From: an uncultured Bacteroidales bacterium
Lineage (GTDB): Bacteria; Bacteroidota; Bacteroidia; Bacteroidales; UBA3824
Direction: 5' to 3'
DNA length: 64,000 nt
Assembly: GCA_905234655.1 (NCBI GenBank)
Contig: CAJOJG010000017.1
Location: 1 to 64,000, forward strand
Shown here: positions 8,658-51,526 of the stretch, one piece after another
How positions within the stretch are numbered: the stretch's first letter is position 1
Layout: the number at the start of each line of letters is the position of its first letter
Translations under genes and position numbers: made by a program
Notes under the pieces: generated by a model
Seen by the model: the letters and a program-made list of their open reading frames with translations, nothing else
The model's database searches: none
What the model was told of the DNA's origin: nothing

Positions 8658-8726
8658 ATTATGATTGAATTTGTTTTGTTTGTTTAGTTTTCAGTTGCAA
8701 AAAAAATACCAAACACGCCGCCCTCG

Positions 8727-9668
8727 TCACTCCATCTGCGACTTTTTCTCTATGATGTACGAGTTCCTGTCTGAGGACGACCGCGCAACTAACTCACTGA
8801 CAAAGCCTGTCAGGAAAAGTTGGCTGCCGAAGATGATGGTCAACAGTCCAAAATAAAACAGCGGCCTGTCGGTCATCTTCCACTGGTTCCAGAACAATTT
8901 TGCCGCGCTCAGGTACGCCAAGACTACGAACCCGACGAGGAAACTTAGCGTGCCAATCAGCCCGAAAATGTGCATCGGGCTTTTGCCGAACCTGAGGACG
9001 ATGTTGACCGTCAGGAGGTCGAGGAACCCGTTCATGAACCGCTCCATGCCAAATTTTGTCACGCCGTACTTCCGCGCCTGATGCTGGACGACCTTCTCCC
9101 CTATCTTCTTGAAACCGGCTTGCTTGGCGAGAACGGGGATGTACCGGTGCATGTCGCCGTAGACCTCGACGCTCTTCACGACCGTGTTACGGTACGCCTT
9201 AAGCCCACAATTAAAGTCATGGAGGCTCAATCCTGAGAACCACCGCGTGACGGCGTTGAAAAGCTTAGTCGGGATGGTCTTGGAAAGCGGGTCGTAGCGT
9301 TTCTTCTTCCAGCCCGAAACGAGGTCGTACTTCTCCTCCTTAATCATGCGGTAGAGTTCGGGAATCTCGTCCGGCGAGTCCTGCAGGTCGGCGTCCATCG
9401 TAATCACGACGTCGCCCTGCGCGGCTCGGAACCCTTCGTTCAATGCCGCCGACTTGCCATAATTCCGGCGGAACTTAATGCCCTTTATGCGGCTGTCCTC
9501 GACGCCCATCTGCTCAATGCGCTTCCACGAGGTGTCGGCGCTGCCGTCGTCGACCATGATGACTTCATAACTGAAACCATTGGCATCCATGACCTTGGCA
9601 ATCCAGTCACGGAGCTCGCCGATGGACTCCTCCTCGTTATATACCGGGACGATTACTGTTATATCCAT
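8727..9668 (-). CDS. Glycosyltransferase family 2 (polyprenol-phosphate mannosyltransferase/ArnC-like) with C-terminal TM segments
   Basis: MDITVIVPVYNEEESIGELRDW, VDDGSADTSW, ITMDADLQDSPDEIPELY, C-terminal hydrophobic helices. Confidence 0.93.
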   Translation of the reverse strand: MDITVIVPVYNEEESIGELRDWIAKVMDANGFSYEVIMVDDGSADTSWKRIEQMGVEDSRIKGIKFRRNYGKSAALNEGFRAAQGDVVITMDADLQDSPDEIPELYRMIKEEKYDLVSGWKKKRYDPLSKTIPTKLFNAVTRWFSGLSLHDFNCGLKAYRNTVVKSVEVYGDMHRYIPVLAKQAGFKKIGEKVVQHQARKYGVTKFGMERFMNGFLDLLTVNIVLRFGKSPMHIFGLIGTLSFLVGFVVLAYLSAAKLFWNQWKMTDRPLFYFGLLTIIFGSQLFLTGFVSELVARSSSDRNSYIIEKKSQME

Positions 9669-9672
9669 TTTC

Positions 9673-10209
9673 TTACTGCTGCTTGTCCTTGCTGTTGTTT
9701 TTTAATGAACGCCACCAAACCATCAACGCCGAAACCGCCGAGAATATCAGCGACACAAAAGTATAGAATATCGTCACAGAGGCCATCATGGCAGGAACCA
9801 TGACGATGTCCGCGACTTCCATGGCCTCCTGTATCGTGTCCTCCGAGTATATCCTCATCTGTCGCAAGATGACCTCGGACTGTGCCGCAAGCTGGCCTAT
9901 GTACTCGGGGTGGAGCATCTTCATGTACACCGACACGTAGAGATCCACTATCAGCGACCCCGCCATGCCCATTACAATGCCCGCGAGCAACAATTCCGAG
10001 TAGCGCATCCCACGCTTTGAACGCGCAAAATCGTACTGCCCGAGCATTATGACCACTGCAATAATCATGCAAGGCGCAAAACTCGTGACCGAAAACTCCC
10101 TGTCCCACAGCCATGAGCCTATGAGACAGAATGTGACGACATCGGCTCCGAGTTCAAGCCCCCAATACAAGGCTCTCGACCAATAGCGTTTAGTTTCTTC
10201 GCTAACCAT
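9673..10209 (-). CDS. DUF4199-like membrane protein
   Basis: YWSRALYWGLELGADVVTFCLIGSW, four hydrophobic segments; next to a GT2 gene, a common Bacteroidetes arrangement. Confidence 0.75.
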   Translation of the reverse strand: MVSEETKRYWSRALYWGLELGADVVTFCLIGSWLWDREFSVTSFAPCMIIAVVIMLGQYDFARSKRGMRYSELLLAGIVMGMAGSLIVDLYVSVYMKMLHPEYIGQLAAQSEVILRQMRIYSEDTIQEAMEVADIVMVPAMMASVTIFYTFVSLIFSAVSALMVWWRSLKNNSKDKQQ

Positions 10210-10360
10210 TTGATGTCTTTAATGCGTTTAGTTTCATATTACAAAGATAGTATAATTATTTCAATATCCACATCACAAAAATTAAATATTTTCTTAATTA
10301 TCTGTCACACAATCGAATAAAAAGCGAAAAATTTTTTTTATAAAAAAAATGCCAAAAAAA

Positions 10361-10391
10361 TTTGGTATGTCACAAATAGTTTCTACCTTTG
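10361..10391 (+). promoter_or_regulatory. Bacteroidetes-type promoter of the SRP RNA
   Basis: TTTG - 19 nt - TACCTTTG, just 5' of the RNA. Confidence 0.7.
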
Positions 10392-10395
10392 CAGT

Positions 10396-10500
10396 CGGAG
10401 TAAGTCTTGAACGACCAGCTCCTGCGAACCTCCCCAGGTGCGGAAGTAAGCAAGGATAAGCGGTTGTAGCGGTGCGTCTCAAGGTGCTTGCTCCTTTTTT
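10396..10500 (+). ncRNA. ffs: Small bacterial SRP RNA (4.5S-type)
   Basis: ggagtaagtcttgaacgaccagctcctgcgaacctccccaggtgcggaagtaagcaaggataagcggttgtagcggtgcgtctcaaggtgcttgctcc + T-run. It has the conserved CAGGtgCGGAAGtAAGCA apical domain, and the ends pair (GGAGtAAGtcttGA / TCaaggtgCTTgCTCC). Confidence 0.92.
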
Positions 10501-10560
10501 TAATGCATAATTCACAATGCATAATCATAACCAAAAATTCACAATTCAAAATTTCATAAT

Positions 10561-11415
10561 TCAAATTACTGTATCCAAGAAATTTGCGAAATTTTCCATG
10601 TAAACTTTTAACTGTACTGAATCTAAATCCTTCAGCCCGTGGCCGTTACCGCGAAATGAAACGAAATGGCTGTTACCTGCCATTTTTTCGTGCAACTTCC
10701 TCGACTGGCCTATATTGACGACATTGTCATCCTCGCCGTGGAATATCAAGACTGGCATCTTTGAATCGTAATTAATTGGCGAATAGACACTTGTCAACGA
10801 ATCGAACTTCTCCAAACTCTTTCCGTCAATATCGAAAACAATGTCCGACATGGCATACCTGCCCCACGTCGGCACTTTGTCAAACATCTCGTGTATGTCC
10901 ACCGGACCGAAGTCGTCTATCAAGAACTTGACCCGCCGCGCAGTGACAGTGTCCGCGAAAGCCGCCACCATTGCCAAATGCGCACCTGCCGACGAGCCCC
11001 ACAGCCCTATATTTGCAGTGTCGACGCCGAACTTGTCACCATTCATAACCACAAACTCCACCGCGTCGCGGCAGTCCTCGACCGCGCCTTCGAGATGTCC
11101 GCGTCCAAGCCCGACAAGCCTGTAATCCACCGAAAACACGACTACCCCGCGCCCGACAAGCCACCGCAAGACCTCCTCGCGGTAACGCTGATGGATCTTT
11201 GAGCGTGAGCCGCTTATCCAACTGCCGCCGTGGAAGTACAAAACCGCCGGTTTCATAGCCTGTGGCTCCGCGCCGTAGACGTCCATTTCGAGACTTTCGC
11301 CGTCGCGTGCGGTATACGTGGCAGTATCGCCCACGGTGACTTCGCCTCCGCACGACGCGACGACCATAATCAAAACTAAGAAAAACGAACCGAGACGGCT
11401 AACCGAGTTTGTCAT
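10561..11415 (-). CDS. Alpha/beta hydrolase (esterase/lipase-like), lipoprotein
   Basis: Lipobox VVASC; LYFHGGSWISGS oxyanion motif, IGLWGSSAGAHLA nucleophile elbow, FHGEDDNVV, GNGHGL. Confidence 0.88.
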   Translation of the reverse strand: MTNSVSRLGSFFLVLIMVVASCGGEVTVGDTATYTARDGESLEMDVYGAEPQAMKPAVLYFHGGSWISGSRSKIHQRYREEVLRWLVGRGVVVFSVDYRLVGLGRGHLEGAVEDCRDAVEFVVMNGDKFGVDTANIGLWGSSAGAHLAMVAAFADTVTARRVKFLIDDFGPVDIHEMFDKVPTWGRYAMSDIVFDIDGKSLEKFDSLTSVYSPINYDSKMPVLIFHGEDDNVVNIGQSRKLHEKMAGNSHFVSFRGNGHGLKDLDSVQLKVYMENFANFLDTVI

Positions 11416-13804: not shown

Positions 13805-14770
13805 CTAAAAAGCAGGGCATAATATTGTTTTACCATCACTATTTTTTTCTGATTTTTCAAATTTGTACTTCAAACCCACCTCATACGAGCCGTAAGTCTG
13901 CCTGACAACCGCCGAAGTCTCGACTTCGTGGCCTATGCCGACCTCTATCCGCCCGAGGTCGAAGCCCGCGCCCATGACGACCGCCGAGGACACCGCCACT
14001 GACTTTTCGATGCGGTAGCCCAACGACAACAACAGCCTGTAGCCTGAAAAATAGACATTCGGCATTATCATGTCGCTGTACCGTGAATGTGAAAAACAAA
14101 TTCCCGGAACCACAATGCGCTCCAGCTTGTTCTGCGTCCCGCCAATCTTTATCTTGTGGTTGGCCACGGCAGCCATGGTCATCGGCGAGTAGTTGGAGTC
14201 GCCGGCGAGCCGGAAGTTGGCAAGCCGGTGGAATCCCAAAGCCACCATGGTCTCCTTAGTATATACAGCGATGCCGGTGCCAAAAGTCAGGCTGCGGTAG
14301 CCGTCGGACGCCATGTCCTCCGCCAACGAGCCAATCTCGCCGGTCGTCGGCTCTATCATCGAGTAGTAGACCATGTCCTCCTGACGGACAAAACGGCCGA
14401 TAAAGCCGGCTGAAATACCCATGCTGCACTTCAAGTCGCCGGTTATCTCGAAGTCATAGCCATATAACAAGTCGACGCACGTTGTCGAAAAGGCACTCTG
14501 ACCGCCATAATCGCCGTATATCCGCGCGCCAACGCCGCTCGAAAAAGTCGGCAGCTTCTGCTGGTACTCCGCCATATAGATTTTATAGCCGCCATCGACA
14601 CCCGGCCACTGGCTGCGCAAGGCGAAACCCAACTCGTTATAGTCGCCCACCGAAACAAACGCAGGCGACATGCCAAGCTTGTCCAAGTAATACTGCGAAA
14701 AGTTATATTCCTGCGAGTATCCCGCCTTGACGACACATCCTATCAGCAATATGAGCCATAATTTCTTCAT
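13805..14770 (-). CDS. PorP/SprF family type IX secretion outer-membrane protein
   Basis: MKKLWLILLIGCVVKAGYSQEYNFSQYYLDKLGMSPAFVSVGDYNELGFALRSQWPGVDGGYKIYMAEYQQKL; directly upstream of gldK, as in known porP-porK loci. Confidence 0.9.
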   Translation of the reverse strand: MKKLWLILLIGCVVKAGYSQEYNFSQYYLDKLGMSPAFVSVGDYNELGFALRSQWPGVDGGYKIYMAEYQQKLPTFSSGVGARIYGDYGGQSAFSTTCVDLLYGYDFEITGDLKCSMGISAGFIGRFVRQEDMVYYSMIEPTTGEIGSLAEDMASDGYRSLTFGTGIAVYTKETMVALGFHRLANFRLAGDSNYSPMTMAAVANHKIKIGGTQNKLERIVVPGICFSHSRYSDMIMPNVYFSGYRLLLSLGYRIEKSVAVSSAVVMGAGFDLGRIEVGIGHEVETSAVVRQTYGSYEVGLKYKFEKSEKNSDGKTILCPAF

Positions 14771-18100: not shown

Positions 18101-19141
18101 ATGAGTACCGTTATGAAAAAACTTATAATATACATAAACACACTCGCCGCGCTGTTGATTGTCCTGGTCCAGCAAGCCCAGGGGCAGATAATACAGTTCT
18201 CGCAGTTCTACGCCGCGCCGCTGTTCCTGGCGCCGTCATACGCGGGAGAGTGTTTTGGCAGCCGCATATCGCTTAACTACCGTAACCAATGGCCAGAGGT
18301 CGGTACGTTCAACACGTATGCTTTAGCCTACGACCAGAACCTCCATAAGATTAACAGCGGCGTAGGTTTGATGGTACTCAGGGACGAGGCCGGCGAAGGC
18401 AGCCTTTCCCTCACCACGATAGACATCTGTTATTCCTGGTGGACTCATATCAACAGGGAATGGATCGTAAGACCCGGAATAGGCTTTAAATACAACCAAA
18501 GAAGCGTGGATTTTGAAAAACTTATTTTTGGCGACATGATTGACGAGCTCGGTGTCGTCGCCCATAACACAAGCGAGCAGCCCCCCTTAGCAAAAAAACC
18601 ATACCTCGACATACAAGTTTCAGGCATAGCGTACTCTGACAAATATTGGGGCGGCATCTCCGTCGACCACCTTCTGCGCCCGAAAGCATCGCTCTACGAC
18701 GACGACTCATACCATGAGAACATAAAAGTATCGCTCATCGGCGGCGCAAAAATCTACGTCGGACGACCGACTACAAGCCGTGGACGTCAGAGCAGGGAAG
18801 ACCTTCAGAACGTGACTTTCACACTCCTCTACGACTTCACAACCCAGGCCGACAACCTCAGCCTTGGAACATACTGGCACAAAGACCCTTTCACACTCGG
18901 CGTATGGGTCAGGGGCATCCCGGTGGCAGTCCGTGCTGAATCATACAGCAACCTCGACGCTATCGCCGTCATGCTCGGATATAAAATCTTCAACCTCCAC
19001 ATCGGATACAGCTACGACTTCACCATCGGCCACCTCCTCAGCTCCACCGGCGGCAGCCACGAACTCTCCGTTCAGTACGAGTTCCAGCCAAAGGCCAAGT
19101 CCAAGAAACGCCACAGCGTAATCGCCTGCCCGAAATTGTAG
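18101..19141 (+). CDS. PorP/SprF family type IX secretion protein (second paralogue)
   Basis: QIIQFSQFYAAPLFLAPSYAGECFGSRISLNYRNQWPEVGTFNTYALAYDQNLHKINSGVGLMVLRDEAGEG. Confidence 0.92.
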   Translation: MSTVMKKLIIYINTLAALLIVLVQQAQGQIIQFSQFYAAPLFLAPSYAGECFGSRISLNYRNQWPEVGTFNTYALAYDQNLHKINSGVGLMVLRDEAGEGSLSLTTIDICYSWWTHINREWIVRPGIGFKYNQRSVDFEKLIFGDMIDELGVVAHNTSEQPPLAKKPYLDIQVSGIAYSDKYWGGISVDHLLRPKASLYDDDSYHENIKVSLIGGAKIYVGRPTTSRGRQSREDLQNVTFTLLYDFTTQADNLSLGTYWHKDPFTLGVWVRGIPVAVRAESYSNLDAIAVMLGYKIFNLHIGYSYDFTIGHLLSSTGGSHELSVQYEFQPKAKSKKRHSVIACPKL

Positions 19142-40338: not shown

Positions 40339-40413
40339 TTTGTTTTTAAGTTTTTAATTGTTAATTTTGCACCATGTTATTATCAACCTCAACAATGTCA
40401 AACACTTTCGGCA

Positions 40414-40866
40414 ATGGAAAAGCTAAATCTGCCTCAGTATGGCCTTAACATCAAGACTGATGCACAAAATAAATACATTTTTGACATAATACGAAAAAAA
40501 TTTTTGGTCTTGACCCCGGAAGAATGGGTCCGGCAGAATTTTGTGCATTTTCTCATAAACGACCTCCACTACCCTCAGTCGCTCATAGCCACTGAAAACG
40601 GCCTCAAACTTTTCAACACCCAAAAACGCGCCGACATCGTCATATACGGCCGCGACATGAAGCCCTTGGTCGTCGTCGAATGTAAGGCGACGGACGTGAC
40701 GATAACCCAAGAAACGTTCAACCAGGTCGCCCGCTACAACATCAACTTCAAGGCGCGGCTCGTCATTGTCACCAATGGAATGAAGCACTATTGCGCCCGG
40801 TTCGACGCCGCGAGCTCAAGGTACACTTTCCTTAATGAAATTCCTGACTATTCACAGTTGATTTAG
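40414..40866 (+). CDS. Stand-alone HsdR N-terminal-like (PD-(D/E)XK) domain protein
   Basis: LTPEEWVRQNFVHFLINDLHYPQSLIATENGLKLFNTQKRADIVIYGRDMKPLVVVECKATDVTITQETFNQVARYN; D..VECK nuclease signature. Confidence 0.88.
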   Translation: MEKLNLPQYGLNIKTDAQNKYIFDIIRKKFLVLTPEEWVRQNFVHFLINDLHYPQSLIATENGLKLFNTQKRADIVIYGRDMKPLVVVECKATDVTITQETFNQVARYNINFKARLVIVTNGMKHYCARFDAASSRYTFLNEIPDYSQLI

Positions 40867-40950
40867 AGGACAGCTACACAAGGAAAAATGTTGAGAATCA
40901 ACAAGACTCCCAACATTCCAGAATACGTAATACAATGTTTCATGTGCATT
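40863..40950 (-). pseudogene. Truncated 5' end (signal-peptide region) of a propeller-type cassette gene
   Basis: 'gctacacaaggaaaaatgttgagaatcaacaagactcccaacattcc.gaata' is nearly identical to 42162-42211; encodes MLGVLLILNIFPCVAVL* versus MLGVLLILNIFPWVAISQ. Confidence 0.75.
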
Positions 40951-40971
40951 TTTGATTGCGAGCAATAAATA

Positions 40972-41100
40972 AGTACCATATTCCACGCCACAAAAATATA
41001 CACATTTTTCCGAAAACACGTGCCACTTTTGGGTGATTTTTCAACGCGAAAGCCAAAAAAATACACAAAAGTGGCAGATTAGATTAAAGTATCATTCGCG
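40972..41100. repeat. Cassette-array spacer repeat, copy 1 (hairpin about 41020-41077)
   Basis: ttccacgccacaaaaatatacacatttttccgaaaacacgtgccacttttgggtgattttt...cacaaaagtggcagattagattaaagtatcattcgcgga. Confidence 0.8.
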
Positions 41101-42237
41101 GAGGATTTTTGGAACAGGGAGAAAGCAAGGAGGACTTTCGCCGTCACAAGGATTTGCGGAAAACCAGGAGGCGGGAAATATTTGGTTTGACGGTTCTATT
41201 TTGTCTTTTGACGGAACGTAGATGTATTCCATCTCCGTGTTTCCAAGCTTGTCAGTAGAGAGCGATATGGCATATTTTTCATACGAGTAGAAACACGTCT
41301 TATGGTGAAAAACATCATAAAACGGACTTGAACTTAACTCAATACCATAGTAATCAATAATGTTTGTTATTTTTTCTGACCCAAAATCGACATATCCATC
41401 TTTAAGGTCATATTCCAATAAATCCGTAACCCGGGCACGAGATTTATCATGGATAAAGTTGCAATATATCTTTTTCCCGTCGTATGAAAATGCAGATGTA
41501 ATATAAAATTCATCAGGGAAATCGGCGAGTTTAATGCTTTTGACCTTGAAAGTACCAGTCATTCGGTCAAAATCTCCGTAATGAAGCTCTGCAAATCTCA
41601 AGACTGAAGTAAAATGTTTGCAATCAGGACTGAGCATTACATATAAATCGTTATCACGACTGGGTTGTTTTTTATTCTCAAATATCCAATCTTCACTGCC
41701 ACAATATATAACCTCATCATTTGACAACAAATATTTCCGTATCTCGTCATCTCCAGAATAGAACAACCACACTCCACTGCAATCTGACTTGTGCACGGCA
41801 AGCACTATATCGCCCGTCTCAAAATTATCTATTTTCTTTATGACTTTGTTCTTCTCAAGATCTATCATCATATAATTTCTCCCAAAATAATGGACGATAT
41901 TACTTGAACTGCCTGGCACAAAACATTTTGACTCGTAAACAAGCATTGAACTGCCCTCTATGACATTGTTGTCGGCATCATGTAGAATACCATCATACCC
42001 AATTAGCCTCGTATCTCCATTTTCATCTACATAATAGCATTGTTCGACATCATAGTATTCTTTTAAGTAAACATTGTCGCAGACCTCAACACTCGGGTGA
42101 TTTAAATCAAGATAATATCCACCAATGAAAAAACGCGACACATGCTTTGACTGTGAAATGGCTACCCAAGGAAAAATGTTGAGAATCAACAAGACTCCCA
42201 ACATTCTGTAATACACGAAAAAAACTCTGATTACCAT
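41092..42237 (-). CDS. Secreted beta-propeller-like protein, cassette 1
   Basis: Start ATG 42237 overlaps the upstream lipoprotein stop (ATGGTAA); signal peptide MLGVLLILNIFPWVAISQ; repeated strand pattern (e.g. CVDNVYL..., YDGKKIYCNFI); ends CFLPVPKILRE*. Confidence 0.7.
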   Translation of the reverse strand: MVIRVFFVYYRMLGVLLILNIFPWVAISQSKHVSRFFIGGYYLDLNHPSVEVCDNVYLKEYYDVEQCYYVDENGDTRLIGYDGILHDADNNVIEGSSMLVYESKCFVPGSSSNIVHYFGRNYMMIDLEKNKVIKKIDNFETGDIVLAVHKSDCSGVWLFYSGDDEIRKYLLSNDEVIYCGSEDWIFENKKQPSRDNDLYVMLSPDCKHFTSVLRFAELHYGDFDRMTGTFKVKSIKLADFPDEFYITSAFSYDGKKIYCNFIHDKSRARVTDLLEYDLKDGYVDFGSEKITNIIDYYGIELSSSPFYDVFHHKTCFYSYEKYAISLSTDKLGNTEMEYIYVPSKDKIEPSNQIFPASWFSANPCDGESPPCFLPVPKILRE

Positions 42238-42995
42238 TGTTCTGGAGTAATAGTACGGACAAGACGGATTCTCGCTTTTTGGGTAGGGTTGTTCGTATAA
42301 CCGTAAGTGACCTTGCCATTTTGACTTGTCGGCCACCATACTACAACCCCACATCCCTTTTTCTTGTTCGCGCTATTGGAATTAATCCACATAGATGTAA
42401 CGAAATCGATATAATTTCTCAAGTCCCTATCTATCAGTTCTTCTTCTCCTTCGATATACAATTCCAAATCATTTGGAATCAAACTCTTGTCGGAATAGAT
42501 CAAACCAATATTACGAATATCATCTTCGGTAGGAATGTGGAACCCGTTCTCGCGAGCCAAAGTCTTACGATTGAATATAACATTGTCAAAACTTCTCATA
42601 CGGCTGCCTGTTCCAAAATTTCTTTCCCACTCGTAGAAGTAGCCATATTTCACACCAGCCTCATCTCCAGGTAACGTACTATACCATTGTCCACAATTAG
42701 TATGCACATAGTCAAGAAACCACTCTTGAAGAATTGTGAAATCTTCGTTAGCCACTTTTACCGTTCTGTAGGCATCGTATTCTTTACGATTCCTTTTCAT
42801 CATTAGCACAGAGGAGGTATCCAAAAAGGAGAAGCTCTTTGACAGACGTCGCCCCTGCCTGACGCTTGTATCGGACATTTGTGAAATGACTTCAGTGACA
42901 GAGGAATCCTCTTCCTCCTCGCAGGCCGTCATGCCTGCGAGCATCACGGCAACGACTGCCGCAAATGCAATTAGCTTCATGATTCTGTTTTTCAT
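42231..42995 (-). CDS. FISUMP-like lipoprotein, cassette 1
   Basis: MKNRIMKLIAFAAVVAVMLAGMTACEEEE lipobox; VKYGYFYEWERNFG...NGFHIPTEDDIRNIGLI...ARIRLVRTI resembles Fibrobacter succinogenes major paralogous domain features. Confidence 0.65.
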   Translation of the reverse strand: MKNRIMKLIAFAAVVAVMLAGMTACEEEEDSSVTEVISQMSDTSVRQGRRLSKSFSFLDTSSVLMMKRNRKEYDAYRTVKVANEDFTILQEWFLDYVHTNCGQWYSTLPGDEAGVKYGYFYEWERNFGTGSRMRSFDNVIFNRKTLARENGFHIPTEDDIRNIGLIYSDKSLIPNDLELYIEGEEELIDRDLRNYIDFVTSMWINSNSANKKKGCGVVVWWPTSQNGKVTYGYTNNPTQKARIRLVRTITPEQW

Positions 42996-43137
42996 GTTAA
43001 TATGAATTATTTATTGATTACGGGCAAGCAATATTGCTTCCACGCCACAAAATTTTCCGAAAACACGTGCCACTTTTGGGTAATTTTTCGTGCGGAAGTC
43101 AAAAATTACCCAAAAGCGGCATGTTAGATTAAAGCAT
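42990..43137. repeat. Cassette-array spacer repeat, copy 2 (hairpin 43067-43121; palindrome AAGCAATATTGCTT 43026-43039)
   Basis: GTGCCACTTTTGGGTAATTTTTcgtgcggaagtcAAAAATTACCCAAAAGCGGCA; nearly identical to 45463-45600. Confidence 0.88.
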
Positions 43138-44546
43138 CATTCGCGGATTATTTTTGGAAGAGAAACCTGTTTTGGAATTTTCACAAATTTTGAAACCGTC
43201 TTCATTTCATCATTATGGAACAAAACACTCATGGTGACATTGCAAATCCCGAATGACATGAAATTATGAACGACATGCCTTCCTTCAGCAATAACACCAT
43301 CGCCAAAATCCCACGATACTTTTTTAGCGCCAATACCTCGGTAATCGAAACTTGCCGAACCACACTCCACCGCATAAAGGAATGACGGCAGGTAACGAGG
43401 AACATGAAGAAACGAATTTTCACACACAGCTCCGTCGAGATACAACGCTTGGTAATTGAACTTACAATCATTCGACGGAGCATCCGGACTTTCTATGACA
43501 GAAACATATCCATCACCAGAAAAACCAAGGTATATATTTCCATCAGGACCTACTATCATGTCAGACCGACTGTTAAAAATATCCCCCGACATTTGCTTCC
43601 GTAGGACGACAATGGTGTCTGCAACCTCACTTGCTTTGTGAATTGAGCCCACAATCCTGTACCTGATAACCATAAATTCCGACTTTGTTTTTCCATATTT
43701 GCCACAGAACAAATATTCACCCGACGGCGAAAACTCAAAACAACTAACACTGTCTATACCCATGTCCACCTTACCTGCCACATCGCCATACTCGCCGATC
43801 TCAGTTCTGTAATACTTCTCTCCATTTTTGAACAATAAAAAAGAGCCGTCAGCAGAAATCCTCAGATTAGAACGGTAGACGGTCGTAGTCATTTTAAAAT
43901 CACGTGCAGTCGATACCAACATAAGGCTATCAGAAACTTCAAATGTTTTAAGGCAACCTTCCTCGTCATTATACACAATCAGACACGGATAATCATTGAC
44001 ACTTACAGTCACAAAATCGTCTATCCTTAAACCACGATAAACATCATGCGAAGCCAAGGAAACTATACCTTTGGCACAATTAATTATCAAATGATGAAGT
44101 TCATGCACACTTCCTACCTTGGCATTCTCCTTTTTCACAAAAAGATGGTGTACATCCTTGTTTTCATTGTCGCCGATATTACAAATCCCGAAATCAAACG
44201 CGGAAACAAAAGAATCATTGTATATTACCCTATTTTCAAAATCAGCAACCTCAAAATACAGGACTCCATTCTTCTTTACGAGATAACAATAAAACAGGAG
44301 ATTCCCGTAATCATCGGAATATGCGACAAAATAGTCGTGCATATTATGACTATTATGATAATCTTCGCTTCCCTCATAAACTGGCATGACCACGGCCCTC
44401 CCGTCCTGAAAAGACACATGCGCACCAGACCCGAAAATCCAATTGTCATAATTTTTCTGACAAACCGCCGATGGAACGGAGCTTGTCAGAAAAAAAATGA
44501 ACAGAATTGCCAGGATTGCATTACTGATATTTCGGCTCGAAAACAT
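43137..44546 (-). CDS. Secreted propeller-like protein with C-terminal PKD-like domain, cassette 2
   Basis: Start MFSSRNISN at 44546 overlaps the lipoprotein stop at 44521; signal peptide; NYDNWIFGSGAHVSFQDGRAVVM resembles the 'NWYFG' start of Bacteroidetes T9SS propeller/PKD proteins; KKVSWDFGDGVIAEGRHVVHNF is PKD-like; ends IPKQVSLPKIIRE*. Confidence 0.72.
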   Translation of the reverse strand: MFSSRNISNAILAILFIFFLTSSVPSAVCQKNYDNWIFGSGAHVSFQDGRAVVMPVYEGSEDYHNSHNMHDYFVAYSDDYGNLLFYCYLVKKNGVLYFEVADFENRVIYNDSFVSAFDFGICNIGDNENKDVHHLFVKKENAKVGSVHELHHLIINCAKGIVSLASHDVYRGLRIDDFVTVSVNDYPCLIVYNDEEGCLKTFEVSDSLMLVSTARDFKMTTTVYRSNLRISADGSFLLFKNGEKYYRTEIGEYGDVAGKVDMGIDSVSCFEFSPSGEYLFCGKYGKTKSEFMVIRYRIVGSIHKASEVADTIVVLRKQMSGDIFNSRSDMIVGPDGNIYLGFSGDGYVSVIESPDAPSNDCKFNYQALYLDGAVCENSFLHVPRYLPSFLYAVECGSASFDYRGIGAKKVSWDFGDGVIAEGRHVVHNFMSFGICNVTMSVLFHNDEMKTVSKFVKIPKQVSLPKIIRE

Positions 44547-45468
44547 AGCGTATTGAATAGCACTCACGATCAAGCGTCTGAAGTCCAATAAATGCTACAT
44601 AATCGTAATATTTCTTGTCAAGCGGATTCTTGTAATGACGTTTCACCGTGAAAAAACGGTGCCCATTATCTGAACCATCCTGCATGTGAAATACTCCTTC
44701 CTCTCCAAGCGCATTAAACCAACCGCATGAAAGAGTTTCATTGTATGTGCCATACCGATAACCAGCAAATGTCTTGTCACAATCCTTATCAGTACCTTTT
44801 TTCAAACCACATAAAAAAGCATCGAAATACATTTCATCCCAACCTGAAAAATCATGAACGCTTTTCAATTGTTGCTGATATACATCATGGTCTTCTTCCA
44901 TCAAATCATTAATGTCAATTCTGTTTGGCAACCTACCCACATGTTCATAAACTCTTGTAGGTCTTCCGTTAGCTCTGTAATCAGGCAATTTCATATAGAA
45001 ATCATTACGAAGTTGGTATGCCAGCGGCCATTGATACAGATAGCCATATTTCGCCGCATTCGATTCCTTGAAGTCATACACTGTGCATTGATGATTGAAT
45101 TCTACTTTTTCAGCCACATTGTCAATCATCATGTAGAAGTACCTGCCAGGGTTAGATACTCGATAGACTTTTACCGCAAGGTATTTTTTCTTTGGATCTG
45201 AATAGCAATAGACAGTGTCAACTTCCAAATAGTCCGATTCATCGGCGACAAGACCCTTAGATACGCCAGCAGCATACTTCTGACTGAACGTCCACTCCAT
45301 CCTCTTACCGTCAACGACAAGTACGCCGTCATTAGCCACTTCCACTTGCTCACTGACTGATTCTGCCTCAACCACTACCGGTTCTTCCTCCTCGCAGGCC
45401 GTCATGCCTGCGAGCACCACGGCAATGACTGCCGCAAATGCAATTAGCTTCATGATTCTGTTTTTCAT
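44521..45468 (-). CDS. FISUMP-like lipoprotein, cassette 2
   Basis: MKNRIMKLIAFAAVIAVVLAGMTACEEEE, nearly identical to cassette 1; AKYGYLYQWPLAYQL...LKSVHDFSGWDE..FAGYRYG...GWFNALGEEGVFHM...SIRYVFE. Confidence 0.7.
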   Translation of the reverse strand: MKNRIMKLIAFAAVIAVVLAGMTACEEEEPVVVEAESVSEQVEVANDGVLVVDGKRMEWTFSQKYAAGVSKGLVADESDYLEVDTVYCYSDPKKKYLAVKVYRVSNPGRYFYMMIDNVAEKVEFNHQCTVYDFKESNAAKYGYLYQWPLAYQLRNDFYMKLPDYRANGRPTRVYEHVGRLPNRIDINDLMEEDHDVYQQQLKSVHDFSGWDEMYFDAFLCGLKKGTDKDCDKTFAGYRYGTYNETLSCGWFNALGEEGVFHMQDGSDNGHRFFTVKRHYKNPLDKKYYDYVAFIGLQTLDRECYSIRYVFEPKYQ

Positions 45469-45600
45469 GTTAATATGAATTATTTATTGATTACGGGCAA
45501 GCAATATTGCTTCCACGCCACAAAAAACACGTGCCACTTTTGGGTAATTTTTCGTGCGGAAGTCAAAAATTACCCAAAAGCGGCAGGTTAGATTAAAGCA
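45463..45600. repeat. Cassette-array spacer repeat, copy 3 (hairpin 45531-45585; palindrome 45499-45512)
   Basis: ttcatgttaatatgaattatttattgattacgggcaagcaatattgcttccacgccacaaaa..., same as copy 2 with a small deletion. Confidence 0.88.
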
Positions 45601-46336
45601 TCTTGTGATTCACGCAATAAAACAACGCCTCGGAGATATTAGAGACATCAAGTTTCTTAAAAAGACGCTTCCTGTAAGTCTTCACGGAATCCACTGACAG
45701 GCATATAGATTTTGCGATGTCGTCCATGGTGCGCCCCTGTGCCGAGAGCCACAGTATTTGCCTTTCGATGTCAGTCAAGACGACAACCTCCTGCCGCGTC
45801 CAGCAGCGCGTAGACAACGAATACTCATAATAATCAGGCTCACCTTCCTTGCACAAGACAATATTGCCGGAACTTTGTCCCGTAGGCATCGTCAGGACAA
45901 AAAGTCCGACCTTGACATTGCCATCCACAACTTTGACAGGCACAAAATATTGGAGCATCAGCATCTTGCCAAGATGGAAATTATACGAAACCTTGACTTT
46001 CAAGATTTCATCGTCAGGCATCCCCCGCAAGAACGAGAACACGGCCTCATTAATCTTCACAAGCATCTTATAATCCTCGTCCGGCACGCACTTCACAAAC
46101 TTGTCGCAGTCCACGTCCCCCACCTCTGATGTATCGACACCGCACCACCGCGCAATATTGTCGGTCATATACAGCACCTTGTTATCCTCATAGTCCACGA
46201 GGTACATCCCGCACCCAAATATTTGCGTCATGGACTTGGCGAGCCTTAAGTCCACACCGGCAACACCGCCGCCACATTCCCCACGTCCCATGATAAAATT
46301 TGGATAACTGAAAAAATCTTTGATGCTCTTTTCCAT
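45593..46336 (-). CDS. LuxR-type HTH transcriptional regulator with N-terminal PAS-like sensor
   Basis: C-terminal LTDIERQILWLSAQGRTMDDIAKSICLSVDSVKTYRKRLFKKLDVSNISEALFYCVNHKML*; ATG 46336. Confidence 0.88.
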   Translation of the reverse strand: MEKSIKDFFSYPNFIMGRGECGGGVAGVDLRLAKSMTQIFGCGMYLVDYEDNKVLYMTDNIARWCGVDTSEVGDVDCDKFVKCVPDEDYKMLVKINEAVFSFLRGMPDDEILKVKVSYNFHLGKMLMLQYFVPVKVVDGNVKVGLFVLTMPTGQSSGNIVLCKEGEPDYYEYSLSTRCWTRQEVVVLTDIERQILWLSAQGRTMDDIAKSICLSVDSVKTYRKRLFKKLDVSNISEALFYCVNHKML

Positions 46337-46404
46337 CGTGTCTTTTTTTAATATTTCCGCCGCAAATATAGACACAATGAAGAAAAAAGCAAAATTAATT
46401 TCGG

Positions 46405-46926
46405 TTATTCGCGGATTATTTTTGGAAGAGGGAGCAGGCAGGGATTAATGTGCGACATCTGCCGACGCATAATTTGAGGAAAATAATAGCCACCGAAATT
46501 CATGGAACAATCTGATCCAATCGTATTTACAAGCACTTCTCCTTCCTCAACTCCGTCAATGACATAAACCACTCCGCCACCACCATTCGTCGCATACAGA
46601 CTTCCATCGATGCCTTGTTGAATCATAAACAGCCCTTCATTGTTCCCGCCAAAATCATAAAACACCTTAAACTTAGAAAAAACCAATCCTTCGGACAAAT
46701 CATAACCAATAAGCAAATCATTTCTTACAGCCATCAAATATTTGTCATTTCTTGTCAGTGCAAAAAACAGGTTTCCATCTGGCTTTGTGACAGAAGATAC
46801 AGAAATTTCTTCCGTATGGCGGTCAACATCCAAGATAAAAAAATCGGAACTTGTACACGCATATACCCTTGCCCCATCCAACGTCTGCCTAATGCAACAA
46901 ATGAACGAAGTTATTATTGCTTCCAC
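46405..46926 (-). pseudogene. 5'-truncated propeller-like protein, cassette 3 remnant
   Basis: Propeller-like strands; ends INPCLLPLPKIIRE*; no signal peptide; 5' side runs directly into spacer repeat copy 4. Confidence 0.65.
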
Positions 46927-46982
46927 GCCACAAAAATATACACATTATTCCGAAAACACGTGCCACTTTTGGGTAATTTTAT
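46912..46982. repeat. Cassette-array spacer repeat, copy 4 (half, hairpin truncated)
   Basis: attgcttccacgccacaaaaatatacacattattccgaaaacacgtgccacttttgggtaatttta. Confidence 0.8.
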
Positions 46983-47004
46983 TATCACTCTTTAACATTT
47001 TTTT

Positions 47005-47069: not shown

Positions 47070-49334
47070 ATGAAAAAAACTGTTTTAATACACGCGCTCG
47101 GGCTAATGGCCTTCGCAGCCAACAGCACGGCGCAGACGACATCCTACGACCTGTTCCCAGTCCCTGAAGGGTTCAAGGCCGTCGCTGCCAACATTTCGGC
47201 AAACGGACTTAACGCCATTGTCGAAATAGAGAACGAGCCGCAGTCAAAAAAAGAAGAAAAAATAACAAAATACATCTTCTTCACCAAGACTAACGGCCAA
47301 TTCGGAAACCCATCGGAAAACAACCCTCTCAACAGCCTCATCGAGAAAAACATAAAGCCGATGCAGCCATCGCTATCCAACGACGGCAACAAAATATACT
47401 TCGCCGCCGACAATGGCTCTGGAAACACCGACATATACGTAGTCTCTAAGTCAAACGGACAATGGAGCGACATGACGCCGCTCAGCGACAGCATAAACTC
47501 ACCAGCCCAGGAGCAGTACCCAGCCATATCGGCAGACGGCAACACGATATACTTCACGAGGATTAAAGTCCCGGCAAAAGGCGAAAAACTCATCGACCCG
47601 CGATGCGGCATAATCTACATGAGCACCCACAAGCCCGACGGCACATGGACAAAAGCCAAAGACGTGCCGGAGCCCGTAACGCTCGGCTGTGACGCATCAC
47701 TGTACGTCGCGCCCGACAACCAGACCCTGTATTTCGCCTCAATCCGCAAGGAAGGCAGGACAGACTTTGACATATACTACACGCACAGGCCAAACCAAAA
47801 GTCATGGATAATCCCGCTGCCAATCGACTCGGTCAACGGCCTCTACAACGACTTCTCGCCATCATTCGACTACCAAAGCAAGATGATGTACTCACTGCAT
47901 AGCGAAAAGAAGTCACAGGCTCTCGTCAAAACCGAAATCCCGCCCAACTTCCACCACCTGCCGGTCACAAGGTACATCGGAAAGACAATCGACAAATACA
48001 CAAACCAGCCGCTCCAGACCGACATTACAATCAAGGACGCGCGAAGCTCCGAAATCCTCGCCCAATATAAAAGCGACGAGAAAACCGGCGAGTACGACTT
48101 CTTCATCACCGAACCGTCGCCGGTGTTCATCGACTTCAGCCACCCAGGCTACTCCCACAACATCATCGAGACAACCCCGGACGGCAAGGAACACAAGCAG
48201 GACTACACCTTCTTCAATAAAGTCGACATCCAGGTCAACGTATTCGACTCCGAAATGTTCGACGCATTGGAAGGCGACTTCTACGTCCAGGCCGACGGCA
48301 AAGACACGACACTGAACATCGACGAATTTGCCACTGGCCGCTACAAAACCACACTACCCATCGGAACAAACTTCGACTTCAAAATCACAAAAGACCTCTT
48401 CCTCGACTACGACTTTAAGGTCGACCTATCGCAAGTCGTGCTGTTCGAATCCGTAGAACGCGACGCCGAGCTTGTCTCGAGCAAGACACTGCTCAAAGTC
48501 CAGGTCAAAGGCCTCGAAGAAGGCGAGACCGCCGACGTGACCATTGTGGACATATCCACAATCTCAAAATACTCCACCACCGCCACCACCGACGACAACG
48601 GATACGTCGAGTTCTGGCTCCGCAAAGGCGACCTCTACACCGTCAGCATCTTCAAGAAAGGCTATACGCCATTCAACCAGACTACCGCCCTCGGCGCAAA
48701 AGACCTCGCATTCGACAAACTCCGCAGACGCACAGGCCGTCAGACTAAGGACGCCGACTTCCAGACAAGCGGCCAAGGCCTCGACTACACAAGGCAAAGG
48801 CGCGCACACGGCGACGACTTCGACGAGGACGACGAAGAAGCATACCTCCTCTCAGACGAAGATAGGCAGAGGAGAAGCACCAAGGACTTCGACTTCTCTA
48901 ACCTCAACTTCTCCACCGACGAGACCATCAACCTCGACGGTAGCGTCACCGTCGTCGCCGAAATCCGAAAAATCAAGGAAGGCGTAGTAATGGAAATTCC
49001 CAACATCAACTTCGAGACTAACAGCTCCACACTCACCGAGTCAAGCTACGAAGGCCTCGAAATCCTCGTCAACATCATGAAATCGAACCCGGACGTCAGC
49101 GTCGAAATATCCGCACACACCGACGACACCGGCTCCGACGAATATAACAACAAACTGTCCGACCAAAGGGCCGCCTCCGCTGCGGCATACTTCATAACAA
49201 AAGGTGTATCCAGGAAAAGGATCATTACCAAAGGATACGGAAAGTCAATGCCGATTGTACCAAACGACAGCGACGAAAACAGGGCTAAAAACCGCCGTGT
49301 CGAAGTCAAAGTCATCAGCACAGTTAAAAGCTAA
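47070..49334 (+). CDS. OmpA-family protein with N-terminal WD40/PD40-like propeller and carboxypeptidase-regulatory-like domain (PorE-like)
   Basis: PSLSNDGNKIYFAADNGSGNTDIYV, YPAISADGNTIYFTR; C-terminal INFETNSSTLTESSYEGLEILVNIMKSNPDVSVEISAHTDDTGSDEYNNKLSDQRAASAAAYFITKGVSRKRIITKGYGKSMP. Confidence 0.9.
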   Translation: MKKTVLIHALGLMAFAANSTAQTTSYDLFPVPEGFKAVAANISANGLNAIVEIENEPQSKKEEKITKYIFFTKTNGQFGNPSENNPLNSLIEKNIKPMQPSLSNDGNKIYFAADNGSGNTDIYVVSKSNGQWSDMTPLSDSINSPAQEQYPAISADGNTIYFTRIKVPAKGEKLIDPRCGIIYMSTHKPDGTWTKAKDVPEPVTLGCDASLYVAPDNQTLYFASIRKEGRTDFDIYYTHRPNQKSWIIPLPIDSVNGLYNDFSPSFDYQSKMMYSLHSEKKSQALVKTEIPPNFHHLPVTRYIGKTIDKYTNQPLQTDITIKDARSSEILAQYKSDEKTGEYDFFITEPSPVFIDFSHPGYSHNIIETTPDGKEHKQDYTFFNKVDIQVNVFDSEMFDALEGDFYVQADGKDTTLNIDEFATGRYKTTLPIGTNFDFKITKDLFLDYDFKVDLSQVVLFESVERDAELVSSKTLLKVQVKGLEEGETADVTIVDISTISKYSTTATTDDNGYVEFWLRKGDLYTVSIFKKGYTPFNQTTALGAKDLAFDKLRRRTGRQTKDADFQTSGQGLDYTRQRRAHGDDFDEDDEEAYLLSDEDRQRRSTKDFDFSNLNFSTDETINLDGSVTVVAEIRKIKEGVVMEIPNINFETNSSTLTESSYEGLEILVNIMKSNPDVSVEISAHTDDTGSDEYNNKLSDQRAASAAAYFITKGVSRKRIITKGYGKSMPIVPNDSDENRAKNRRVEVKVISTVKS

Positions 49335-49363
49335 AACAACCTCAAAAAATGAATAAGATGATC

Positions 49364-51526
49364 ACAAAAAAGATAATATTGACGTTGATTGTGGCGGTTA
49401 CATGCACCGCCGCATACGCCCAACGCATGAAATACAAGGACATATACGGCCTAATCGGAATCGAACCCGCCGAACACACGCTCATCAAACTCAACGAGTA
49501 CCAGAGCGCAGACCCCGAGTTCCCCAACACATACGTCCAGACCGCAGTAATAAAGTGGAAATGGCTCCAGGAAGAAGACCCGTTCCTCAACTACAAATAT
49601 GTCCGCCAGCTTATCTACGACACAAGGCTTTACCTCGGCCTCGCCATAAGCAAAATCAAAGCCGACGACAAGGAGGTCAAGACTAACCGCGACTACTACA
49701 CCAACCTCGGCGTTGGAAACCTCAAGACCGTCACACAGGAAGGCGTGCTCGGATACCTCGACAACATCATGTCCACTCTTAACGAGTACGACGAGCATGT
49801 CACCGCCATTATCGACAACTTCAACCTCGCCATCGACAAGTACAACGACTGCACACAGACTTTCAACAAAATCGTCGGCCACTCCAACAACTACAAGAAC
49901 CTTCTTGTGACAAACTCCGACGAGCTCCGCAGCGAAATCAAGAAACTGTCCATGGACTTCGACAGCGTAAAACTATGCTTCGGACTCTTCAGGAACGAAC
50001 TCGCCAACTACCCCATCAAACAATACGACCAAAAACTGGACATAAAGCCCATAGAGACATACAGGCTCGAAGGCCTCACGTCGTCCAACTTCATCCAGCC
50101 GCGAATCCCCGTGTGGGACTACCAAGGATGGTGCAAGGACGCGCTCAAACTCCTCGACGGAAACATCAAGGACATAAAGACAAACACCGAAAAGGCCATC
50201 AAGGACATCCGCGCCCGCGTCGCCAAGCTCCAACGCGCAAACGCCGAGACCGACAGCATACAGAACATAATCCCGTCGAACAAAATCCTCAACCTCACTG
50301 AAAAATACGACTACGAGTCGCTCCTGTCCTCCGCGCTCAGGTACGAAGTCTCAAAGGCAAACCTACAGATTGCCTCCCTGCGCTCCACTAACAACATCGA
50401 CAACCCGGAGTCCTACAACAGCGACTATAACCAAAAGGCGAACTACTACTACGACCTCTACCTCATGGTGCGCACATGCAAGAACAACCTCCGCGCAATG
50501 AACGCCAGGATTAACGACAAGAGCCTTCACCTCCACGAACAGACCATCACGAACCTGTACGGCAACACATCAAAATTCTCCAAGACATACAAAACCGAAC
50601 AGGAAAAGGAAATCGACAAAATCCAGGAGAAGAACTTCGAGCATTTCCGCGCATTCACCGTCGACCAGTACACGCCGATGAACGCCTCATACACATTCAA
50701 GGAAAAGGAAATCAACGCCGCGCCATACGAAATCCCTTTCGACGAAGCCGACCAGGACGAATACACCACGGTATTCTCATGCAAGGACGGCACCGGCAAC
50801 AGGCTTATCGGCGGCTACCGGAAGACCTCAGACGTCGCGTCGACCGCCTTCGTCGCAAAAGGCGACCCCGACGGACAGCTCCTTTGGGCTACCGACATCA
50901 CGATGCCCGCCGGCCAAAACGCAATCATACAACTCGCTCCCTCCAAGACCGAAGGCCTCTACGCACTCGCCACTAACGGCACTAAGAGCAGCGTCATCAA
51001 GCTTGACAAAGAGGGAAAAGTCGTCTCAAAAACAGACCTCACATCGACAATGTACCCCGTGGCGTTCACATTGGACGAAATAGCCGCCACAGTGTCCGTC
51101 GTGTCAAAAGGCGCAAACGGCAACGCCGACACAGACACCTACGACGATGTCGTCCTGGAGACCGTGAGCCTTGGACAGAAGAACCCGGCATTCAGCAAAT
51201 ACTTCAAACTGAAAGGCAAAGTCGCCGACATCATAAAGTCGTCCACCGGCTACGTCATCGTATGCAACTACACCGCGCTTAACGTGAACGGCAAAGAGTT
51301 CACATCTAAATCCGACATTGCCTCCGTGGCCATCAGCGGCGACAACATAACCGCCAACGCCTGCAACTCGAAAGAAGAAATCAGAGCCATCAAAGCCTTC
51401 CAGATTAACGCCGAGACCATTAACATCACCGGCGCATACGACAACCTGAACTCCAAGACATCCTCCGACGAAAAGCCGGCATACCTGCTCCTATCGACAA
51501 GAGGAAAGTTCTTCTACAAAAACTGA
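49364..51526 (+). CDS. Secreted protein of unknown function (about 720 aa), helical N-terminal region plus propeller-like C-terminal region
   Basis: Signal peptide MITKKIILTLIVAVTCTAAYAQ; no family recognised. Confidence 0.75.
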   Translation, partial: TKKIILTLIVAVTCTAAYAQRMKYKDIYGLIGIEPAEHTLIKLNEYQSADPEFPNTYVQTAVIKWKWLQEEDPFLNYKYVRQLIYDTRLYLGLAISKIKADDKEVKTNRDYYTNLGVGNLKTVTQEGVLGYLDNIMSTLNEYDEHVTAIIDNFNLAIDKYNDCTQTFNKIVGHSNNYKNLLVTNSDELRSEIKKLSMDFDSVKLCFGLFRNELANYPIKQYDQKLDIKPIETYRLEGLTSSNFIQPRIPVWDYQGWCKDALKLLDGNIKDIKTNTEKAIKDIRARVAKLQRANAETDSIQNIIPSNKILNLTEKYDYESLLSSALRYEVSKANLQIASLRSTNNIDNPESYNSDYNQKANYYYDLYLMVRTCKNNLRAMNARINDKSLHLHEQTITNLYGNTSKFSKTYKTEQEKEIDKIQEKNFEHFRAFTVDQYTPMNASYTFKEKEINAAPYEIPFDEADQDEYTTVFSCKDGTGNRLIGGYRKTSDVASTAFVAKGDPDGQLLWATDITMPAGQNAIIQLAPSKTEGLYALATNGTKSSVIKLDKEGKVVSKTDLTSTMYPVAFTLDEIAATVSVVSKGANGNADTDTYDDVVLETVSLGQKNPAFSKYFKLKGKVADIIKSSTGYVIVCNYTALNVNGKEFTSKSDIASVAISGDNITANACNSKEEIRAIKAFQINAETINITGAYDNLNSKTSSDEKPAYLLLSTRGKFFYKN

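Follow-up and report, generated by a model that had tools for sequence, protein, structure and literature searches.

The closest described systems to the locus considered here are the type IX secretion system (T9SS) adhesins with a type-B C-terminal domain (CTD), e.g. SprB/SprF of Flavobacterium johnsoniae and PG1035-PorP-PorE of Porphyromonas gingivalis (PMC9143113, PMC12618676). Type-B CTD proteins are held by PorP- and PorE-type partners, as in the PorE-PorP-type B CTD complex (PMC9143113), and type-B proteins rely on PorP/SprF shuttles (PMC12618676). The known adhesins of this class are single long chains. The locus in question is an array of paired lipoprotein and beta-propeller genes with a LuxR-type regulator gene, situated on the minus strand of a 64,000 nucleotide stretch (the window: positions 1 to 64,000 of contig CAJOJG010000017.1, assembly GCA_905234655.1) from an uncultured Bacteroidales bacterium of the UBA3824 lineage. 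It resembles the type-B adhesins in its propeller, PKD and immunoglobulin-like (Ig) domains, in the TIGR04131 domain found in the operon of relatives, in a PorE-like neighbour and in the PorP/SprF genes of the genome. Unlike in the single-chain adhesins, however, the domains are split among separate coupled genes, the operon has a FISUMP lipoprotein at its head, the head cassettes are arrayed and LuxR-linked, and the window array carries no CTD in cis. With moderate confidence, the array is read here as a split, LuxR-controlled surface-adhesin operon related to T9SS type-B substrates, with head cassettes multiplied by recombination.

Two other described groups share features with the array. 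FISUMP proteins (Fib_succ_major, PF09603/TIGR02145), among them gut-metagenome lipoproteins diversified by diversity-generating retroelements (DGRs; PMC4159848), are alike in domain family and lipoprotein form, but the array lipoproteins have a fixed partner gene and no DGR template was found for them. The Sus-like surface lipoprotein pairs of Bacteroidota (PMC5080379) are alike in an acid-rich export signal and a paired surface gene; there the partner is a TonB-dependent barrel, whereas here it is a soluble propeller.

Lipoprotein-propeller pairs and their products

The paired genes and their remnants are as follows.

44521–45468, minus strand: LIPO2, type-2 FISUMP-family lipoprotein of 315 residues; cysteine followed by EEEE; C-terminus SIRYVFEPKYQ
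43137–44546, minus strand: PROP2, secreted beta-propeller with PKD domain, 469 residues; C-terminal tag LPKIIRE; 26-nucleotide overlap with the 3' end of LIPO2
42231–42995, minus strand: LIPO1, type-1 FISUMP-family lipoprotein of 254 residues; cysteine followed by EEEED; C-terminus TPEQW
41092–42237, minus strand: PROP1, secreted propeller without PKD domain, 381 residues; tag VPKILRE; ATGGTAA start/stop overlap with LIPO1
46405–46926, minus strand: third propeller, present as a 3' remnant just under the head promoter; tag LPLPKIIRE; match to the PROP2 hidden Markov model (HMM) at 3e-27
40863–40953, minus strand: 5' remnant, a propeller-type signal peptide region with 79% identity to the start of PROP1 at 40873–40953

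The original prediction, made from the letters of the window, had described two coupled pairs with their overlaps, two further remnants (a third cassette and a 5' piece) and a LuxR gene; all are present on the minus strand where it had placed them. The 5' remnant had been taken for a fourth cassette remnant. The sequence exists, but its signal peptide is of the propeller type and no lipoprotein start is present.

The lipoprotein-propeller pairing is real biology. Sixty related genomes were searched, with gene calling and family HMMs applied thereafter. Lipoprotein relatives occur in 12 of the 19 same-genus genomes (the window's own among them), and propeller relatives in most of them. A propeller gene lies directly downstream on the same strand for 35 of the 39 family lipoprotein genes, a set to which close relatives contribute a few near-identical copies; the four without a downstream propeller include a 93-residue fragment, a weak match and a gene at a contig end. 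The concern that the pair might never co-occur elsewhere is answered by this co-occurrence across the genus. Distances in the lipoprotein and propeller trees also match (Mantel r=0.75, 0 of 5000 permutations, 30 non-redundant pairs, a correlation that includes shared species history), and the proposal that the products are kept as pairs is upheld on both counts.

Two lipoprotein types can be distinguished. Type 1 has a tryptophan-rich tail (..xW, sometimes with a few extra acidic residues) and type 2 ends in SVRYVFEPxY. The nearest propeller comes with a lipoprotein of matching type in every case (30/30); within type 2 alone the tree correlation persists (r=0.65, 0/5000 permutations). In 12 of 15 type-1 pairs the ATGGTA(A) propeller start holds the lipoprotein stop codon, as the ATGGTAA of PROP1 does for LIPO1.

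Are the two window lipoproteins unrelated folds, as was feared at the outset? They are not, as both belong to one family. TIGR02145 (FISUMP) matches 24 of 33 lipoproteins and PF09603 matches 14 of 33 (E<=0.01); LIPO1 alone gives a weak FISUMP match (E 0.024) and LIPO2 alone none, both being joined via the family HMM. Acidic residues directly follow the lipobox cysteine in all 32 members with a visible cysteine. An acid-rich export signal of this kind is attributed to Bacteroidetes surface lipoproteins in PMC5080379. Inspection shows type-I signal peptides on the propellers. The products of both genes look surface-directed, in agreement with the surface location first predicted for them.

A PKD domain is present in 17 of 31 propellers, PROP2 included (PKD_4, E 1.8e-5), and the best Protein Data Bank (PDB) match of the predicted PROP2 model is 1l0q, a propeller-PKD surface-layer protein (E 2e-13). 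The NCBIfam matches of the 31 propellers contain no T9SS model, neither TIGR04131 nor CHU_C, and a T9SS signal on the propellers themselves is rejected. Interrupted propeller frames are common to genomes G014 and G017 (L068 2999–4164, L070 3551–4719, L098/L099) and represent either shared pseudogenes or a frameshifted form.

Nearly all propellers, with or without PKD, end in a short tag, PKII-x-E or a variant. The DNA pattern of the tag occurs 14 times in 20 genomes vs once for a control; 13 of the matches are within the genus. Of these, 11 sit at the end of propeller frames, the one at G000:C111 comes immediately after such a frame, and the one at G001:C130 marks none. How might such a tag have originated? 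In single-chain homologues outside the genus, several of which bear a type-B CTD, the PKD domain runs into the stretch P-x-I-x-LG-x-D-T-x-I-C of the next Ig domain, and this stretch occupies the position of the tag. Because the single-chain proteins continue into Ig at this point, the tag can be viewed as the first strand of a missing domain; it is probably a docking strand.

The wider operon in relatives

In several relatives, an Ig-like protein of ~200 residues comes after the propeller, and after it a protein of ~200–245 residues with TIGR04131, the sorting domain of T9SS type-B substrates; in others among them only this second protein follows. Stand-alone TIGR04131 proteins lie next to a pair or a propeller in G003, G005, G011, G013, RGIG1595 and a more distant Bacteroidetes metagenome-assembled genome (MAG). 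The full operon in relatives consists of LuxR, FISUMP lipoprotein, propeller-PKD, Ig protein and stand-alone type-B CTD protein; in the distant MAG (L205) LuxR, lipoprotein, propeller, Ig and CTD stand in a row, the LuxR gene being divergent. Of the proposed joint action at the surface, the keeping of the pair stands; what changes is that, in relatives, the pair sits in a larger operon with Ig and CTD genes.

The orthologous locus is flanked by HolA, a nucleosidase and an HsdR_N-like gene on one side and by the PorE-like gene and two more genes on the other. Between these flanks G011 has LuxR-propeller-Ig-CTD in place of the window array, G012 has LuxR-CTD, and G008 has LuxR-Ig closely followed by a CTD match. 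In G002, Ig-CTD and LuxR-PorE are on different contigs, and the window genome itself has an Ig-CTD gene pair on another contig (L244). An assembly artefact, named with the original prediction as a possible refutation, is unlikely because other species show synteny on both flanks. T9SS GldN is found in 20 of 20 genomes checked, as is the PorP/SprF family, with two copies inside the window. Three features of the window belong to this context.

47070–49334, plus strand: PorE-like protein (PD40 propeller and OmpA domain), conserved neighbour of the array locus
18113–19084, plus strand: member of the PorP/SprF family of T9SS type-B shuttles, elsewhere in the window (TIGR03519, 2.6e-54)
13859–14770, minus strand: second PorP/SprF-family protein (TIGR03519, 1.6e-32)

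A 725-residue secreted protein with no Pfam match (window 49349–51526) is a conserved neighbour of the PorE-like gene in the genus. On the other side, a small stand-alone protein resembling the N-terminal part of type I restriction HsdR (window 40399–40866; HSDR_N_2, E 1.8e-39) is encoded, and short genes resembling it occupy the same locus in relatives.

These neighbourhoods bear on the alternative that survives best, namely a self-sufficient two-subunit surface complex of lipoprotein anchor and propeller head, using the lipoprotein-export route independently of T9SS, with the CTD genes of relatives as separate neighbours. Most pairs, both window pairs included, do lack an adjoining CTD gene, and the propellers match no T9SS model. 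However, several species, the distant MAG included, have CTD and Ig genes immediately after the propeller, and the CTD borne by several single-chain homologues outside the genus also argues for a T9SS connection. This alternative is considered somewhat unlikely.

Operators, the LuxR-type regulator and the mosaic array

The regulator gene and the four spacer copies are listed next.

45593–46336, minus strand: LuxR-type regulator of 247 residues; C-terminal GerE helix-turn-helix (HTH), PF00196 E=2.5e-10
46363–46393, minus strand: probable promoter of the LuxR gene itself, TTTG-N19-TATATTTG, matching the Bacteroidota consensus perfectly as read directly from the sequence
46921–46980, minus strand: head operator/promoter copy, TTACCCAAAAGTGGCA ... 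TATATTTTTG; -7 element intact; one operator arm
45473–45602, minus strand: operator/promoter copy before LIPO2; two inverted boxes (hairpin); ~19-nucleotide deletion removed the -7 element
43000–43138, minus strand: operator/promoter copy before LIPO1; two inverted boxes; ~12-nucleotide deletion reduced the -7 element
40981–41091, minus strand: tail operator/promoter copy; TATATTTTTG intact; the 5' remnant comes next

Transcription from 46.98 kb thus meets, in order, an operator/promoter, the propeller 3' remnant, LuxR, an operator, LIPO2-PROP2, an operator, LIPO1-PROP1, an operator and the 5' remnant. Each cassette had been said to end in the same spacer and hairpin. The repeats are real, but by its features the spacer is the promoter/operator of the next cassette, and the head copy has no hairpin. 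Compared with shuffled sequences, folding gives a strong hairpin at 43040–43140 and at 45500–45605 (z about -5) and a weaker one at 40990–41095 (z -3.3); the head copy (46905–46990) has one arm only (z -0.2). The hairpin consists of two inverted copies of the box TTACCC[AG]AAAGTG[GT]CA, which is related to TTACCC-N4-GGGTAA. As to an integron cassette array, with attC sites and an integrase, these two boxes already explain the hairpin. Promoters of Bacteroidota have the consensus TAnnTTTG, and the spacer also has the -7 element, kept in the head and tail copies and lost or reduced in both interior ones. As a consequence of these interior losses, the head promoter may serve both full pairs as a single operon.

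A terminator or repetitive extragenic palindromic (REP)-like hairpin was considered for the spacer and rejected, because the head copy is single-armed and relatives carry the box in tandem upstream of lipoprotein or propeller genes (G009 and G004, 33–34 nucleotides apart, then TATATTTTTG). In G002 the box lies between PorE and LuxR. The exact pattern TACCCRAAAGTGNCA has 17 copies in the 19 same-genus genomes vs 0 for the reversed control; the non-coding copies are all at these loci, save one in G011 and one in G015, and the remainder fall inside coding regions. The copy in G011 (L263, G011:C88, box at 305, then TATATTTG) precedes the gene of an unrelated 243-residue lipoprotein (MACNDEDDNNN...), perhaps a further member of the regulon. 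In G015 (L272, G015:C191, 1501) the operator/promoter adjoins a gene known from the flank of the pair locus in L081; no pair was seen on this short contig piece, a possible case of a solo promoter left after pair loss.

Seven more genomes also have the operator next to LuxR homologues. A dyad directly downstream of LuxR is perfect in G009:C48 (TTACCC-GAAA-GGGTAA) and G007:C40 and recognizable in G012, G008 and G010, while among random 400-nucleotide pieces of the same loci 4 of 400 have a dyad with three mismatches or fewer. LuxR homologues found independently of the pair have a module gene within 3 kb in 16 of 35 cases, and in 10 of 16 at identities of at least 37%. Linkage and shared operator back the LuxR control proposed earlier, and the LuxR-type protein would be the one that binds the dyad. 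No autoinducer-binding domain was found in the regulator, which matches only HTH-type families at E<=0.1 and whose N-terminal sensor part falls in no assigned family.

The cassettes are mosaics. Repeats of 143 nucleotides (42910–43052 and 45383–45525) and 79 nucleotides, each at 99% identity, add up to ~220 nucleotides spanning the spacer and the lipoprotein signal peptide, while LIPO1 and LIPO2 over their full length align at only 15% identity. Near-identical promoters and signal peptides are thus fused to strongly divergent mature sequences, which is hard to reconcile with a single duplication followed by even divergence and points to recombination of the cassettes at the promoter/signal-peptide end. 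In the PROP2-LIPO1 spacer stand the bases with which the LuxR reading frame ends, TGCTTTAA; they suggest the LuxR-LIPO2 junction as the donor of the spacer. The array had been called expandable or exchangeable, and this is supported only in part: the mosaic, in a comparison between species, shows past recombination.

Could a retroelement have diversified the FISUMP genes? No matching template for the array genes was found, and the template repeats at both reverse transcriptase loci of the genome are unlike them; the array genes were rejected as DGR targets. The two DGR-like loci are of interest in themselves. L288 (G000:C76:4000-15132) has, at 7618–11021, a reverse transcriptase and a 686-residue target frame, with a 122 bp repeat pair in which 14 of 16 differences are at template adenines. 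L289 (G000:C83:5000-15115) has, at 7274–10114, a reverse transcriptase and a target that ends in YGVRPVRAQ, with a 142 bp repeat pair and 19 of 22 differences at template adenines.

The state of the promoters might suggest instead a decaying duplicate cluster without present function, given that the interior copies lost the -7 element, two of the four cassettes are remnants and broken propellers are also present in G014/G017. Both full pairs, however, keep intact long frames, signal peptides, coupling junctions and tags, and the head promoter and LuxR promoter are intact, so that decay is quite improbable. A polymorphic competition or self-recognition system, an effector with its protecting lipoprotein, is very improbable: cognate co-evolution, paralogous arrays with remnants and mosaic ends with divergent middles would suit it, but no convincing toxin domain is found among the 31 propellers (for which the toxin-immunity reading was rejected), PKD, propeller, Ig and FISUMP are structural or binding domains, and orphan "immunity" lipoproteins are not in excess.

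Proposed assembly and significance

In the split-adhesin reading, a housekeeping promoter of its own would supply the LuxR-type protein, which would bind the dyad operators and turn the cassettes on. The first subunit would be an outer-membrane FISUMP lipoprotein with an acidic export signal, and the second, translationally coupled to it, a secreted beta-propeller with or without PKD, lacking a T9SS signal and ending in the strand-like PKIIxE tag. Stop-start coupling would co-produce the two, and the cognate pair would assemble at the outer membrane, where the tag might dock the propeller either to the lipoprotein or to a T9SS-exported Ig/CTD protein that PorP/PorE-type partners retain. In the window species, with Ig and CTD absent at the locus, the Ig-CTD pair would be the one elsewhere in the genome, and the head cassettes would have multiplied through recombination at the promoter/signal-peptide end.

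Several observations weigh against this reading. The window array itself has no CTD or Ig gene, and many pairs in relatives are without a CTD neighbour. About half of the LuxR homologues are far from any module gene, several of them at contig ends. Within type 1 alone (n=11) the tree correlation is not significant (r 0.18, 940/5000). The predicted lipoprotein model (mean confidence score, pLDDT, 80) has no PDB fold match, the best being at E 0.23, and a lectin-like or ligand-binding role is for that reason unproven. A bolder form of the hypothesis, a combinatorial non-covalent adhesin in which interchangeable PKIIxE-tagged lipoprotein-propeller heads sit on a common T9SS-exported Ig/CTD base, one anchor with several heads, in LuxR-controlled arrays that grow by recombination, is doubtful.

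The split, lipoprotein-headed, arrayed and LuxR-linked form of adhesin is not described in the literature searched, a body that leaves most subscription journals outside it. As the domains and machinery are already known and only this form is undescribed, it is counted as a variant and not as a new kind of system. The rumen lineage that carries the array is seen only as metagenome assemblies in the collections searched. If the reading is true, the split form would show Bacteroidota swapping surface heads without rebuilding the secretion signal. It also lets one test directly whether partner proteins can cross the outer membrane carried by a CTD protein, and the pairing of operator and LuxR makes regulation testable in this rumen lineage.

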